In this document: one piece after another, positions 19,343 through 64,000 of the stretch | Layout: each line of letters begins with the position of its first letter | Numbering within the stretch: the first letter of the stretch is position 1 | Assembly: GCA_015345905.1 (NCBI GenBank) | Contig: JADDTR010000016.1 | Coordinates: forward strand, 500,631 to 564,630 | Reading direction: 5' to 3' | DNA length: 64,000 bases | Origin: Aotearoamyces nothofagi | Taxonomy: Eukaryota; Ascomycota; Leotiomycetes; Leotiales; Tympanidaceae | Made by a program: the position numbers and the translations under genes | Notes under the pieces: generated by a model | Told to the model about the DNA's origin: nothing | The model's input: the letters and a program-made list of their open reading frames with translations, nothing else | Databases searched by the model: none

Positions 19343-20336
19343 GATTTCTGAAACGATTCAAAGTATGAATTATGGTAAGGAGGGCTGAAGGTCCAATGTT
19401 GGGTCTTGGGCAGTATTATGACGGTTGGAGGTTCGGGTTTATGCGGAGTGCCTGCCGAGCTTCGTCTTTTAAGTTATCAGTATCACAGCCTCGGAGAAAT
19501 TACGTCGCTGTGGGTCTTGCACCTTCTTGGCCAGCAAAAGATAAGTTAGAAGACTATGGATGATGGCAAATATATATGGAACAAATTAGAGGAAAAGCCG
19601 ACGACAATAGTGGAGATGTAGGGACTTATACGTAGTCAATTGCCATCACACGACGACCCGCGGCTGTCCCTTTCACCAGCTGGCTATAGGCCCCCGCAAT
19701 CTCGCACAATTGGAGCAATCTTCGGCAATGCCCCGCGCTACAACGCTAGAGACGGAGGAAGGGGAATGCATGGGACGACGACTATTTCCCGGCTACTGAT
19801 CGATCGCTCTCCCCGGATGCTCAGCAATCTCGTCAAGAAGACTGAGCCAGACTGTCTTGGTAATGCTTGTGGCCTGGTGGCCGATGCTATGATTAAGCAG
19901 GCTGCTGAGCCGGAGAGCTCTGGCCTTCTTGCTGAGCAAATCGACAGTGGATGTTCCACTGCGTAATAGGCAGAAGGCATACTCGGGTTCTGAAATCAAT
20001 AAATAGTGGTCACATGAATCAACACTGTAGCAGTCCTCAACCCCCAATTTCCCTAATTACTGTATCGTACGCAGCTCTCTGATCCTGCAACAATTCCTAC
20101 GTATTGCGCTCCGAGATACTTAATGTCCGCCCTTCCCCGGATGGGGCTTTGGTGGGGAACGGAATAAGTCGGGACTTTGGGCGAACAACGCATGAATATT
20201 GTTCCGTCGTTAGGGCACGTGATTCATGCCTTAGGTTTGGATATGCTCGGTTGTTTTGGCGCTACGGGTTCACACTTGATAGAAATTTTGAGCTTCGAAG
20301 CTGTCTCTCTCTTCACCAAACATATTTATCCAAAAT
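19343..20336. other. Intergenic, probable promoters of FBP1 and of the snoRNA host gene
   Basis: About 1 kb with only short frames that lack protein character. The right-hand part precedes the plus-strand snoRNA host transcription unit. Confidence 0.4.
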
Positions 20337-20836
20337 GTGATCAACCACCTCGTTGCTGCTCAAGGCAGTTCATTCCATACACTTCCAGAGATCCGAGCTC
20401 TTTTGCTCTCCTCTGCTCGCAAAGGATCCAGTTCGGTGTGCTTGCACTCGACGCGTTTCCCTTCCGACGATACCACCTTCACCGTTGATGATGGTAAGCT
20501 TCCAACCCTTTCTTTTTTTGCTTTTCCTTTGCATGATTATAAAACGCATTCAATATTCAAACTAGAGTTGTTGATAGCTTTCGATCCAAGGAGCTGAGAG
20601 GCTTAGTCTCCTCAACGCCGATTGGGTCTGCTAATGATATTAATCCGCACGTCAGTATGATACGCAAAGTTTTTGGGATCTCGCTGTACCATCTCTTTAA
20701 CAAGAGAAAGTGCTAACTGTACCCTTTAGAATTTTCATCGCAACCTATCTGATCTCCTCTCCGGACATCGATATGGACTTAGGAGCTATATCGCTTAACG
20801 GTATGTTTCTCTCCTCTTCCTCTTTGCTTCTTCACT

Positions 20837-20941
20837 GGTGGCTATGATGGCACTGTGCGTCCCTCGGGGCGTATAGGAATTACCGACGAAACAGACCCTA
20901 AAAAGTCTTTGACGAAAAAATGGCTTTAATACTGAGCCACC
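20837..20941 (+). ncRNA. Box C/D snoRNA, snR77-like (predicted 18S U578 guide)
   Basis: A terminal stem pairs GGTGGC (20837-20842) with GCCACC (20936-20941). The C box is ATGATGG (20844-20850, last base off consensus) and the D box is CTGA (20932-20935). An internal guide GGAATTACCG (20876-20885) is complementary to CGGUAAUUCC of 18S rRNA. The degenerate D' box CGAA follows at 20887. Counting five bases upstream of it places the target on the U that yeast snR77 methylates (U578). The rRNA sequence is from memory of yeast. The element sits inside the intron-like segment 20801-21009. Confidence 0.75.
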
Positions 20942-21078
20942 ACAAACCCTCTCTTGGTTTTATTCTGATGATTGGCTTTACATGATGCTAATTTGCATCT
21001 GAACATTAGGCCCTTCCTCACCAGGTACGAACATCTCGCAACCCTCTTCCACCTTGCACAACTTTGAAAAGATGAGAC

Positions 21079-21229
21079 GGCACTGGGCTCCGACAGCTCC
21101 GACAAGATCGGGCTGGCTTGTGAACGGAGATGCCATTTTGCGGCAGGCCTAGAAAACCTCGCCCACTGATCACTGTCATATAATCTTGGCTACTTGATAA
21201 TGCGTTATGAGGCCAGATGGCTAATAACA
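21079..21229 (+). ncRNA. Possible H/ACA-like structured RNA
   Basis: A first hairpin is formed by GGCA/TGCC (21079/21131), CTCCG/CGGAG and, above an internal loop, ACAAG/CTTGT. An ANANNA-type box AGAAAA lies at 21151-21156. A second hairpin (CCA 21163 with TGG 21218; TCATA with TATGA) is followed by ACA at 21227-21229. This order matches an H/ACA snoRNA, but the spacing from pocket to H box is longer than usual and no target was assigned. It sits in a possible intron, 21025-21237. Chance structure is a real alternative. Confidence 0.28.
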
Positions 21230-21394
21230 AGACGTAGATCTGCTTCCAGTCTCTTGGTGCTGTTATGCTGCCTAGCTGTTGCAGGCACTGGGCTGACTAA
21301 AGTCTTGCTGGAAACTCGCCATATTACGAGGCTGTCGTTCATTGCGCCTCTTCTTCCTGTAGGTTTCAGCATTTCTTTCCTTCTTCCTATTACT

Positions 21395-21475
21395 ATGATG
21401 AGCATTTTAGATGACGAGTCTGATCCGGGTAACCGATGTTGACACAAATCAAATTATACCATTCATGCCTTCTGA
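21395..21475 (+). ncRNA. Box C/D snoRNA with two 25S guides (core)
   Basis: C box ATGATGA (21395-21401), internal D' CTGA (21420-21423) and D box CTGA (21472-21475). The D' guide TTAGATGACGAG (21407-21418) is complementary over 12 nt to 25S CUCGUCAUCUAA. The D guide CCATTCATGC (21459-21468) is complementary over 10 nt to GCAUGAAUGG, only ten bases further on in the same rRNA. In yeast this stretch carries C2197 (snR76) and A2220 (snR47). The plus-five rule points to nearby but not identical bases. It lies within the intron-like segment 21359-21543. The mature ends are not resolved. Confidence 0.75.
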
Positions 21476-21655
21476 CATTATTCTTTTGCATAAAAGTGAT
21501 ACTTCATCATTAGCTGCATCAGATGTTAACGTGTGGCAAATAGGACCTTGATCCAAGAGCGAAGCAAGAAGACGGCTGGATGGCCCTTTATGGTGGACTA
21601 TGGCGCTGGCGCAATGTGAGGGTACGTGTTAAGACCTTTTCAATTCTGGCTTTCC

Positions 21656-21740
21656 AGCATTATGATGATCTCGACGGACAAATGACAAGCATATGTCCAA
21701 GCTTTACGGCGATGACGAGCCTGTCTTAACTGAATATGCT
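21656..21740 (+). ncRNA. Box C/D snoRNA, snR74-like (predicted 18S A28 guide)
   Basis: Terminal stem AGCAT (21656-21660) with ATGCT (21736-21740); perfect C box ATGATGA (21662-21668); D box CTGA (21730-21733). The internal guide GACAAGCATATG (21684-21695) is complementary over 12 nt to 18S CAUAUGCUUGUC near the 5' end of the small-subunit rRNA. A degenerate D' CCAA follows at 21697. The fifth base upstream of it pairs exactly with A28, the site served in yeast by snR74. It lies in the middle of the intron-like segment 21622-21800. Confidence 0.85.
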
Positions 21741-21904
21741 CTCTTCAATCTTTTACTATTGTCGTCAATCCGCTATCATTGCTGACAGTATTCCTAATAG
21801 CTTTTGCTCACCTTGGCTCAAGACGAAATGTAATGCATTAGTGCACTGATAAGCAACAATTATGGTGAGTCTCTTATCTCTTTCTTTATAGTCTGCTTCC
21901 TCCA

Positions 21905-21997
21905 CTTTACATGATGATCAATTATCACGACGGTCAACATAGCCACACGTTGGTATTGATGATAACGCCTTTGACAAGGCATTAGATCTGACTTCTT
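21905..21997 (+). ncRNA. Box C/D snoRNA with a 25S guide near the peptidyl-transferase region
   Basis: C box ATGATGA (21911-21917), C'-like TTGATGA (21956-21962) and D box CTGA (21988-21991). The segment TCACGACGGTC (21925-21935) is complementary over 11 nt to 25S GACCGUCGUGA, the stretch holding the sites of yeast snR69 and snR71 (C2948, A2946). The D' box is degenerate, so the exact methylated base is uncertain. It lies in the intron-like segment 21865-22058. The outer ends are approximate. Confidence 0.7.
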
Positions 21998-22240
21998 TTA
22001 CAACTTTCCTTGTTGAAATCTTTGAATTGTTGAGAGAGCTTGACTAACATTCAAGTAGTTCATAATTAGTAGTTGTATTCGAAGTCATTTCTATGCTTTG
22101 ACTGAGACTCCTGGAGGCTCATGTCTAGTGAAAACAGCCATAATGTCCAACTAGCTGGGCCTTGGTTGTTAGACCTTGACCGCTGTGGGCTTTGCGAATA
22201 TGCAATACTCGAAATGACTCGTTACTCGAGCAACCCCCGC

Positions 22241-22804
22241 GAAGAGTATTCTGTCTAAAATCACTGATCGACTACCTGAGATTCCTACCAGTGATGAGAT
22301 CATGGGAACTGGTTCTCGAAATTAATTCGCCATGATCTCATCACTGTTAAAGATGCTGGCAGTGAAGATCCGAGCCGTGTTTTCTATTCGCAGAGCTCTC
22401 TATCCATCGCAATACATATTCTGGAATGCTCTTCTAGCCATCACAATAGACATAGTCAATGCCAAAGACTTCAAGACAAATACTTCAATTGCTGGATACT
22501 ATGTCATTACTATCTACCAACTATGCATTTAGATGTCGCTCTTGGCTGCTCAATTCATTTGATAATTGTCTGATCTTGATACGAAAATCGGTTCGGGGCA
22601 CTTGTGATCTAATCTCATGCTTGAATTTCTTCTAAAACTAAGCCTATGCAAACCTAACTTCATGATCATAGTATCCATACAATGCAAATCTATTATACTA
22701 TGAAACGCCTTGGGTATAATGCCGCACAAAACAGCCAATGCCAGCTGATGTAATGTAATCGCGAGCTGTGAATCTTTAATAACTCCTCCATTGCTTCCGC
22801 ACTC
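22241..22804. other. Intergenic between the snoRNA host gene and the carboxypeptidase
   Basis: AT-rich, with small frames only. It contains a strong inverted repeat (listed separately). Confidence 0.4.
22289..22346. repeat. 17-bp perfect inverted repeat, potential hairpin
   Basis: The arms 22289-22305 and 22330-22346 are perfect reverse complements (core AGTGATGAGATCATGG), separated by a 24-nt loop. It could be a structured 3' end or processing signal of the upstream snoRNA host transcript, or a small inverted-repeat remnant. Confidence 0.8.
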
Positions 22805-57434: not shown

Positions 57435-59110
57435 ATGTTATCGCGACACGGACCTTCTCCTAAGACTGCTTCTACAATCGCAGCGCGCGTATTGCCTTCA
57501 ACGGCGTGTGCCGGGTCCCGTTCACCTTCATCCGCCTCTACACAACAGGCTCGAGGTCTTGCCACCGTTCAGGATGCTCCGCCAGTACGACACTATGGTG
57601 GATTGAAGGATCAAGATCGTATCTTTCAGAACTTATATGGGCACCACGGTGCTGACTTGAAGAGCGCAAAGAAGTATGGCGACTGGTACAAAACGAAAGA
57701 GATCTTAGATAAGGGCCATGATTGGGTGGGTGACGCTCAATTGGACATCCCTGGACAGTATGTACTGACTATATGGATAGATTATCTCTGAGATCAAGGC
57801 ATCCGGGCTGAGAGGACGTGGTGGCGCCGGTTTCCCTTCTGGAATGAAATGGGTAAGCAAACATTTAGCCATTGTGTATGATGGTTGCTAATACAAACAA
57901 GTCATTCATGAACTTCAAAGACTGGGATAAAGATACGAAGCCACGATATCTGGTCGTCAATGCCGATGAGGGTGAGCCTGGAACCTGCAAAGACAGAGAG
58001 ATCATGCGAAAAGACCCACACAAACTGGTCGAGGGCTGTCTGGTTGCTGGACGAGCAATGAACTGCACTGCAGCATACATTTATATCCGTGGCGAATTCT
58101 ACCATGAGGCTACAGTTCTGCAGCGTGCTGTTCAGGAAGCATACAAGGATGGTTTGATTGGAAAGAATGCATGTGGAAGTGGTTATGATTTCGATGTTTA
58201 TGTTCACCGTGGAATGGGCGCCTACGTTTGCGGTGAAGAGACATCACTTATTGAATCACTCGAGGGAAAACCAGGCAAGCCTCGGCTAAAGCCTCCGTTC
58301 CCTGCCTCTGTTGGACTCTTTGGGTGCCCCTCAACTGTGGCCAACGTGGAGACAATTGCCGTGGCGCCCACGATTGCCCGAAGAGGCGGATCCTGGTTCG
58401 CATCCTTTGGTCGTGAAAGAAACGCTGGTACCAAGCTATACTGTATATCTGGTCACGTAAACAACCCATGCACAGTTGAGGAAGAGATGAGCATACCATT
58501 AAGAGAGCTTATTGACAAACACTGTGGCGGTGTCCGCGGTGGGTGGGACAACCTGAAGGCTGTTATTCCAGGTGGATCATCTACCCCTATCTTACCAAAG
58601 GCAGTCTGCGATAGCCAAATTATGGACTACGATGCGCTCAAAGATAGCGGATCCGGTCTCGGTACTGCGGCTGTTATTGTTATGGACAAGAGTACAGACG
58701 TTGTCCGAGCTATCTCAAGATTGAGTCACTTTTACAGACATGAGTCATGTGGCCAATGTACGCCATGTCGTGAGGGTAGTAAGTGGGTTGATCAAATCAT
58801 GAAGAGATTTGAAAAGGGTCAGGCAAGAGACCGTGAGATTGATATGCTACAAGAGCTTACAAAGCAGGTTGAGGGTCACACTATCTGTGGTAAGTAATCC
58901 GTTTTATCCTTGATAAAGAGTTCCCTCTAACGACAGATAGCTCTCGGCGAGGCCTTTGCATGGCCAGTCCAGGGTCTCATCAGGCATTTCCGCCCTGAAC
59001 TTGAGGCTCGTATGCAAAAGTATGCCGAAGAGAACGGAGGCACCGCTTTCGCCGGAGGATGGACTCGTGATTCTGTAAAGCAAGGGAAGCTCATTGCACC
59101 TGGCCAATAG
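57435..59110 (+). CDS. NUO51: NADH:ubiquinone oxidoreductase 51-kDa subunit (complex I), mitochondrial
   Basis: Four exons (57435-57725, 57781-57852, 57902-58889, 58941-59110) encode 506 residues. The N-terminus (about 40 residues, Arg/Ser/Ala-rich) is a presequence. After it come the conserved [14 protein letters not shown], the spliced [19 protein letters not shown] (NADH/FMN loop, spread over exons 2 and 3), [34 protein letters not shown] and the iron-sulphur ligands [12 protein letters not shown], with the fourth cysteine at GHTIC just before the last intron. It binds NADH and FMN, and the N3 [4Fe-4S] cluster, at the tip of the matrix arm. Length and all key residues are as expected. Confidence 0.95.
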
Positions 59111-59620: not shown

Positions 59621-59736
59621 GGATGGGTGGCCGAGCGGTCTAAGGCGCATGACTCAAGATCTATCTTCCCGAACTCAGTCCGGGCTTAAGCTTTCATGTA
59701 TCGAAAGATGCACGGGTTCGAATCCCGTCCCATTCA
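59621..59736 (+). tRNA. tRNA-Leu (anticodon CAA) with intron
   Basis: The acceptor stem pairs GGATGGG (59621-59627) with CCCATTC (59729-59735), with discriminator A. The D arm GGCCGAGCGGTCTAAGGC and T arm GGGTTCGAATCCC are intact, and they are also the A- and B-box promoters. The anticodon CAA lies at 59655-59657, with stem CATGA/TCATG. An intron of about 34 nt starts after position 37 (about 59659-59692), as in yeast tRNA-Leu(CAA). A long variable arm (GTATCGAAAGATGC) marks it as a class II leucine tRNA. A T run follows the 3' end (terminator). Confidence 0.95.
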
Positions 59737-61585: not shown

Positions 61586-64000
61586 ATGTCTCGACCATAC
61601 GGTGGTCGTGGGCGTGGTGGTGCAGAGCGCGGTGGAGGCTCTTTTCGAGGTGGTCGCGGAGGAGCCAGGGGAGGGTTTACAGCTGGCCCGGCTGAGGTCT
61701 TTCGGTATGCCCCCAAGCCAGCCATTTTCAAAAAGCAGCTACGTGGCGGCCGGCACTAACTGGCTGTTCGATACAGTGACCCTGCTGGCTCCTCCCTACA
61801 GCCTAACGCCGAGGTCACGAAGATCGAAAATGCTTTCATGGCCAACTCCGGGGGAATTGGAGCGTTAGCTAACCTCAAACTGACTGCTACTATGCCTGTT
61901 AGGCCAGGCCATGGGACTCAAGGCACTCCCATTGTGGTCTGGGCTAACTACTTCGAAATAACTCCTGCTAAAGGCTTGACACTGTACAAATACCATGTAG
62001 CCGTCGATCCTGTCAGTAAAGCCCCGAAGCCATCGAAGATTAAGCTTCGGCGTCTCTTTCAACTTCTCCTTGAAGATCCAAGATTCGCTCATGCCAAGTC
62101 TGATTTCAAGGCAATGCTTGTCACTCGGGATAGACTCGCAAACGCCACAATTGAAGTGGTCATCCCTTTCCGAGCCGAAGGAGAAGACAATCCTCGTGAT
62201 GATCCTCATACGTATCGCCTGACAATTGAAGAGACTGGTGCATTAGCTGTTTCTGAACTACTGGAACACTTGAAATCGACCAATCCAAAGTCGCCGGAAT
62301 TTGGTAGCTATCCTGACATCATTCAAGCACTGAACAATGTTGTCGGCCATTCTGCCCAATCCCGACAGGACATTGCTACGCTTGCTCAGAATAGGCACTA
62401 CTTGTTGGATCATAATAGGGCCAATCTGAGGGTGCTCGGAGGTGGAATGGAAGCTCTCAGAGGATATTTCAAGAGCGTTCGGCTGGGAACATCACGCATT
62501 CTCTTGAATGTGAACGTTACCCATGGTGCGTTCTACGAACCTCTGCGCCTTGATGCACTGGTGCCAAAACTCGGCAGTGGGAAGCTATCCAATCTGTCCA
62601 AGTATCTGAAGTATCTTCGCGTGGAGAGATTGCATCTCCCTGTGAAGAACAATAAAGCCGGTCTGAAAATTCAGAGTGTCGCGACAATTTGGGATTTGGC
62701 AACGCCGAACGATGGTTTCAGCGACGATAACCCCCCGCAGGTCAGCCACTTTGGTGCCGGTCCTAAAGATGTCAAGTTCTTCCTAAGACCTGGAGGTGGC
62801 CCCGCCGCAAAATCTTCCTCCAGGACCCCCGCGACGAAGAAAACAGCCAAAGGCAATTCTGGAAGATACATTTCAGTATATGATTATTTCACGCAATGTG
62901 AGTTGTGTTTCTTATCATATTTGCAATCGCCAGTTTCTGACACAATCATAGATTACCCGTCGATTAAGATGAACGACAGACTCCCGGCCGTCAATGTTGG
63001 TAATCGCCAGCACCCTAGCTATCTTCCAACTGAAGCCTGCATGGTATTGCCAGGACAACCCATGGGTAGGAAGCTTAGCAGTGACGAAACACGGCAAATG
63101 ATCGAGTTCGCGTGTAGGAGGCCTAAGGCCAACGCCGAGTCGATCGTCCGTGACGGAAAGGATGTTCTTGGGTTGTGTCCGCCAGGTAACGCCGGACTGG
63201 TGAGTTGATTCGCAGCTCTGGTGAAGAATCAATGGCTAACACTTCTCAAGACTCAATACGGCCTGTCAGTAAGCGCGACATTGATAACTGTACCAGCTCG
63301 AACCCTAGCACCTCCCTCAATTAACTATCTAAAGGGGAGGGTAATACCAAGGGCGGGTAGCTGGAACATGGAAGGTGTAAAATTCCACACTGGAACTGTC
63401 ATTGGCCGGTGGACTTATCTCTACATACAGTCCAACCGGCGCTCGAATAGTCCGGGCTTCAACGACAGCACCCACCTCAAGAACACTGTGGCTGCCTTTG
63501 CAGATTTCATGAATAGGTCCGGTGTGAGAATTGGCCCATTCATGTCTTCACCTCTACCACCTGTTATCCAGTTTCAGGACGGCCAGGATGCTGAAAACTA
63601 TAAACAAATATACGAGCTCCTGAATCGAATGTCCATATCCCGGGTCAAGCCTCAGTTTCTGCTGGTGATTCTGCCGTTTAACGATGCTGGCATGTACCGA
63701 ATGATTAAAACCCAGGCTGATATAGCGGCTGGCATTCATACTGTCTGTGTCGTCGGTAGTAAATTTGCGAAGGAAGCTCGGCAGGAGCAGTACTTTGCGA
63801 ATGTTGCCTTGAAATTCAACTTGAAGGCGGGTGGAATCAACCAGACGCTGGACACTGCTAAACTGGGAATAATCAGTGAAGGCAAGACGATGGTGGTAGG
63901 CATCGACGTTACTCATCCATCACCTGGATCAAAGTCAGACGCCCCAAGTGTTGCTGGCATTGTCGCTAGTGTCGACAAATTCCTTGGGCAGTGGCCGGCC
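61586..64000 (+). CDS. Argonaute protein (RNAi), 3' part outside the window
   Basis: Four exons are visible (61586-61704, 61777-62897, 62952-63199, 63251 to the window end), giving the first 746 residues. The N-terminus is an Arg/Gly-rich low-complexity segment (about residues 3-34). The N domain follows (GTQGTPIVVWANYFEI), then an ArgoL1-type linker (GGMEALRGYFKSVRLG) and a PAZ region (about 300-420). GLCPPGNAGLTQYGLSVSATLITVPARTLAPP leads into MID. PIWI begins with PQFLLVILP and GIHTVCV, and VVGIDVTHPSPGS supplies the first catalytic Asp at about residue 715. The remaining acidic residues and His lie beyond the edge, so slicer competence is unknown. The fungal paralogue (quelling QDE-2 or meiotic SMS-2 type) is not decided. 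Confidence 0.93.

Follow-up and report, generated by a model that had tools for sequence, protein, structure and literature searches.

The plus strand at 20527-21991 carries six box C/D snoRNAs in the order snR78/72 (U52), snR77, snR76, snR75, snR74/U27 and snR73/U35, and this locus is almost certainly the Aotearoamyces nothofagi copy of snoRNA gene cluster I (snR78/72-77-76-75-74-73), an intronic set of rRNA-methylation guides in a non-coding, spliced host. All coordinates refer to the window, i.e. the whole stretch of 64,000 nt that was analysed. The six C/D units, their guides, the splice-type motifs around them and the cluster I order snR78-77-76-75-74-73 on one strand are observed directly. 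The sequence-only reading of this DNA had already recognized an intronic box C/D cluster in a non-coding plus-strand host, which is borne out by the Rfam matches, the guides, the splice motifs and a longest ORF of 45 aa; it had counted four RNAs, without saying which four, where six were found, and two had therefore been missed.

The Rfam covariance search which that reading had proposed identified in the window, at the gathering threshold, two snoRNAs (Afu_513 and snR75) and one tRNA elsewhere. The Afu_513 match (RF01514, 87 bits, E 1.6e-16) covers 21065-21171 and corresponds to snoRNA 3, while the snR75 match (RF01185, 73.5 bits, E 4.6e-13) covers 21393-21477 and corresponds to snoRNA 4. A permissive scan of 20001-22700 returned 14 matches, including sub-threshold ones at three further places, namely the units designated here snoRNA 2 (Afu_300, 21.3 bits, cut-off 40), snoRNA 5 (SNORD27, 24.5 bits, cut-off 52) and snoRNA 6 (SNORD35, 32.7 bits, cut-off 36). 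The snR76 model overlaps the Afu_513 match (29.6 bits, cut-off 55), and the eight remaining matches were treated as chance matches or cross-matches on the same snoRNAs. No Rfam model matched snoRNA 1 in 20001-22700 even at the permissive threshold; four of the six snoRNAs are hence below the Rfam cut-offs or unmatched.

The members also show complementarity to rRNA. The segment 20337-22240 was compared with a working copy of the yeast rRNA sequence and its methylation sites, used in place of A. nothofagi's own; the LSU numbering of this copy is internally consistent, all 23 listed sites present in it carrying the expected base, and G805 and A807 fit too. Antisense runs of 9–12 nt occur at 7/7 guide sites: between 20557 and 21935 the segment presents, in this order, runs of 12, 9, 10, 9, 12, 12 and 11 nt to LSU U2421, LSU A876, SSU U578, LSU C2197, LSU G2288, SSU A28 and LSU C2959. 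These seven targets are the sites of yeast snR78, snR72, snR77, snR76, snR75, snR74 and snR73, respectively; except for the fused snR72, the guides are arranged as in yeast. Among 2000 dinucleotide shuffles of the same segment none had more than 4 of the 7 sites at a run of at least 9 nt, and 4 shuffles had 4. The observed run length was reached, in the above order of sites, by 1, 236, 42, 194, 3, 5 and 7 of the 2000 shuffles, and the runs to A876 (236/2000) and C2197 (194/2000) are accordingly weak when taken singly. When A876 is omitted, a single block among the 262 in the window contains all 6 sites, and one overlapping block contains 5.

The second snoRNA (20838-20940, snR77-like; box C ATGATGG at 20844, degenerate D' CGAA at 20887, box D CTGA at 20932) is closed by a terminal stem GTGGCT/AGCCAC, has a fold z-score of -3.1 and carries GGAATTACCG at 20876-20885, the 10-nt run that places SSU U578 at +5. 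SnoRNA 3 (21065-21171, snR76/Afu_513; AAGATGA at 21069, degenerate D' CCGA at 21090, CTGA at 21166) pairs through GCACTGGGC (21080-21088, 9 nt) with the stretch containing LSU C2197, again at +5. SnoRNA 4 (21393-21477, snR75; ATGATGA at 21395, D' CTGA at 21420, CTGA at 21472) has the 12-nt guide TTAGATGACGAG (21407-21418) to LSU G2288 and a second antisense element, CCATTCATGC (21459-21468), to LSU 2307-2316. SnoRNA 5 (21656-21740, snR74/U27-like; ATGATGA at 21662, degenerate D' CCAA at 21697, CTGA at 21730, stem AGCAT/ATGCT, fold z -0.41) bears GACAAGCATATG (21684-21695, 12 nt, +5 on SSU A28), and snoRNA 6 (21906-21991, snR73/U35-like; ATGATGA at 21911, degenerate D' CATA at 21938, CTGA at 21988) bears TCACGACGGTC (21925-21935, 11 nt, +5 on LSU C2959). 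The snR74 and snR77 sites and the pairing with the snR76 stretch, all three pointed out in the sequence-only reading, are thereby confirmed, as is the kinship with yeast snR72-78, which has the same order and target sites. In 7/7 guides the methylated rRNA base is paired with the nucleotide five positions upstream of D or D'; this fit is partly circular for the degenerate D' boxes, since only the D' of snR75 is an exact CTGA and the other five (TTGA, CGAA, CCGA, CCAA, CATA) were placed with the sites already in mind. The Rfam alignments give the same place for the D' boxes of snR76, SNORD27 (snR74) and SNORD35 (snR73). Box C (RUGAUGA) is exact in 3/6 snoRNAs and has one mismatch in each of snoRNAs 1, 2 and 3, and box D is CTGA in 5/6 and ATGA in snoRNA 1.

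Two short elements inside these RNAs deserve mention. The snR74-like RNA contains, at 21711-21719, GATGACGAG, a 9-mer that also occurs in the snR75 guide; here CTGT follows after one further base, and the element could act as a spare guide for LSU G2288 or reflect nothing more than a C'-box coincidence. In the snR76-like RNA, GCCTAGAAAACC at 21147-21158 is common to the Afu_513 and snR76 models and does not figure among the nine top-ranking rRNA matches of its segment; it may be a conserved half with no obvious target in rRNA. An exact-pattern search with the conserved 3' part of snR76 gave 0 matches in viral contigs and 0 in genome contigs, and a search for a eukaryotic LSU stretch in viral contigs gave 0 matches as well. 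A comparison of the six RNAs with each other for common origin by duplication found 3 of 15 pairwise local scores above the 95% level of the shuffles and one equal to it; the differences are small, and snoRNA 1 entered as 20525-20605 only.

SnoRNA 1 (20527-20669; box C ATGATTA at 20533, D' TTGA at 20571, box D ATGA at 20657) combines the snR78 guide on its D' side, TCAAACTAGAGT at 20557-20568 (12 nt, +5 on LSU U2421), with the snR72 guide on its D side, GCACGTCAG at 20647-20655. The latter is antisense to LSU 873-881 over 9 nt and puts A876 at +5 from ATGA 20657; the stem CTTTGC/GCAAAG closes the RNA. This 6-bp terminal stem is seen in the fold, which overall does not surpass the folds of shuffles (z -0.98). 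The distance from C to D is 128 nt, with the extra length lying between the two guides, and judging from its sequence the snR78/72 RNA looks enlarged. A CTGA at 20594 was considered as its box D and failed the intron-spacing test; with ATGA 20657 in this role the long form of intron 1 fits the other five introns. An alternative 3' end of intron 1, the CAG at 20655, would fall inside snoRNA 1. That box D may be ATGA, and that snR78 and snR72 are fused in Euascomycetes, is reported in PMC3596301. The Neurospora crassa CD5 RNA likewise joins the snR78 and snR72 guides, but is 80 nt long as a whole (PMC2780460), against the 128 nt from C to D in A. nothofagi. The available part of PMC8476143 makes no mention of snR72.

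All six snoRNAs lie singly in segments that open with a GT(A/G)-type 5' splice site and close with a branch-point motif plus YAG. Host exon 1 (20305-20493; its 5' end is arbitrary, and the sequence-only reading began at 20337) ends at the 5' splice site GTAAGC 20494 of putative intron 1 (20494-20729; CTAAC at 20713, TTTAG), in which the branch-point motif and the 3' splice site follow the end of box D by 52 and 69 nt. The predicted introns 2 (20801-21009; GTATGT, CTAAT at 20988, TTAG, with a longer form to CCAG 21024), 3 (21025-21237; GTACGA, CTAAT at 21221, GTAG), 4 (21359-21543; GTAGGT, or GTTTCA at 21363, TTAAC at 21526, ATAG), 5 (21622-21800; GTACGT, CTGAC at 21782, ATAG) and 6 (21865-22058; GTGAGT, CTAAC at 22044, GTAG) are on the same plus strand, and the last exon (22059-22260, with an arbitrary 3' end) holds the longest ORF of the spliced models. 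All 6 splice models examined share this maximum of 45 aa, with no ORF above 45 codons. In all six introns the start of box C lies 36-46 nt from the 5' splice site, while box D is followed at 48-52 nt by the start of the branch-point motif (CTRAY or TTAAC) and at 67-74 nt by the end of the intron; the three spacings occur together at 22 of 127,200 positions on both strands, a count that overstates the case, because the ranges were chosen after seeing the data. On the plus strand, a scan for C...CTGA pairs up to ~110 nt apart with the intron spacings recovered snoRNAs 2 to 6 and nothing else, and on the minus strand it recovered two pairs that overlap; snoRNA 1 fell outside its criteria.

The splice motifs between snoRNAs 2 and 3 allow two readings: either a 15-nt exon (possible exon 3, 21010-21024) lies between introns 2 and 3, or there is no exon there and CCAG abuts the GTACG of intron 3. 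A more specific proposal, namely that no exon separates the snR77 and snR76 introns (CCAG|GTACG, 21024/21025), that these are removed by recursive splicing and that an internal hairpin segment situated between the two guides has lengthened snR78/72, appears unlikely; if true, the exonless junction and the longer snR78/72 would each count as a variation on cluster I specific to this lineage. In Candida, cluster II has been reported to undergo recursive splicing (PMC5033589). Outside any snoRNA, exon 4 repeats part of the snR76 guide region, GGCACTGGGCT, exactly over 11 nt (21284-21294); since the match extends no further, the idea of another snR76 copy there was rejected.

For A. nothofagi we infer transcription, splicing, trimming and methylation. 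The non-coding host transcript would be made by RNA polymerase II and then spliced, and each excised intron would be debranched and trimmed back to yield one box C/D snoRNP. The snoRNPs are predicted to guide rRNA 2'-O-methylation at LSU U2421 and A876 (snoRNA 1), SSU U578, LSU C2197, LSU G2288, SSU A28 and LSU C2959 (yeast numbers), leaving the host exons as probable by-products without a protein.

Could the cluster be a degraded one, with some members, above all snoRNA 1, no longer functional as snoRNAs? The single mismatches in box C of snoRNAs 1, 2 and 3, the degenerate D' in five snoRNAs and the fact that four snoRNAs are under the Rfam cut-offs would agree with such decay, but the guides are intact in 6/6 snoRNAs, box D is preserved (five times as CTGA and once as the published variant ATGA) and terminal stems are present in snoRNAs 1, 2 and 5, which makes degradation very unlikely. 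Even less credence can be given to a Saccharomyces-like polycistron that is not spliced and from which an RNase III enzyme would release the snoRNAs by cutting between them: the gene order is indeed the same as in the yeast polycistron (yeast order: PMC3596301), but each snoRNA of A. nothofagi is flanked by regularly spaced splice motifs, and the Euascomycete cluster was found to be all intronic (PMC3596301).

The kind, order, intronic state and evolutionary comparison of this cluster are already in print, and the novelty implied by the sequence-only reading falls away, since the same cluster was described as all intronic in Euascomycetes, as well as in Basidiomycota and Zygomycota (Rhizopus), and as unspliced in S. 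cerevisiae and its close relatives (PMC3596301). These data also bear on the history proposed in that reading, an ancestral polycistron whose members later gained introns in this lineage. A comparison with yeast alone does point to such a polycistron-first course, but the distribution of the intronic form argues against it, and the literature draws the arrow in the reverse direction: the introns are regarded as ancestral, and the unspliced state of yeast is attributed to intron loss via degenerating splice signals (PMC3596301), with Candida as an intermediate (PMC5033589). The gain of introns is thus most improbable here, and the intronic cluster of A. nothofagi agrees with the published view of the yeast polycistron as a derived, intron-stripped form. 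The locus is real but ordinary, a further intronic example of a cluster that has been well studied. Its practical yield is six ncRNA genes that would be absent from an ORF-based annotation; the claim that such annotation would miss the cluster is plausible, and describes nothing special to this locus.

With the Euascomycete cluster I the A. nothofagi locus shares the order, the snR78/72 fusion, one snoRNA per intron and non-coding exons (PMC3596301); a comparison by text revealed no decisive difference, the peculiarities of A. nothofagi being the box C ATGATTA and the long internal part of snoRNA 1. That study predicted 323 introns in three clusters and verified 83 of them by EST or RT-PCR. 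The N. crassa RNAs CD5, CD24, CD12, CD7, CD21 and CD31 are all on chromosome VI, are all labelled 'Intron' and have the same seven sites (PMC2780460, Table 1), from which they would appear to form its cluster I; they share with A. nothofagi the seven target sites, the intronic state and a UHG-like host with short ORFs only, and the N. crassa cluster hosts were studied by RT-PCR (PMC2780460). The S. cerevisiae snR72-78 polycistron shares the order and the target sites but has no introns, keeps snR72 and snR78 separate and is cut by Rnt1p at stem-loops between the snoRNAs (PMC5033589). The cluster, or its members in order, has also been reported in Candida (PMC5033589), Exophiala (PMC5075926) and Trichophyton (PMC3890542). 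In Exophiala a transcript detected by RNA-seq hosts the cluster, with splice sites on both sides of each snoRNA (PMC5075926). In Trichophyton rubrum, TRnc_4259 to TRnc_4264 correspond to U52, snR77, 76, 75, 74 and 73 in order on one supercontig and were found as small cDNAs, but they are classed as intergenic or 5'UTR RNAs, and U52 lies ~1.8 kb upstream of snR77 (PMC3890542), compared with ~0.2 kb in A. nothofagi.

Several other features were noted in the window. Just 3' of the host, 22289-22346 (+) forms a perfect 17-nt inverted repeat (-33.3 kcal/mol, z -7.8), of which no further copy was found in the window with up to 3 mismatches allowed; it could be a 3'-end structure or a mobile-element remnant. 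The complex I 51K protein encoded at 57872-58897 has its best match in PDB 7zm7, from Chaetomium. Like the match to Afu_513, a snoRNA family of Aspergillus fumigatus, it is in keeping with a filamentous ascomycete as the source of the window. The tRNA match at 59621-59736 (+) is 116 nt long (Rfam, 46.6 bits), was not found by ARAGORN with the bacterial code and probably contains an intron. At 61838-63208 (+), a 456-aa open frame with Argonaute N-terminal and linker domains (Pfam ArgoN, ArgoL1) is presumably part of an RNA-silencing Argonaute gene.
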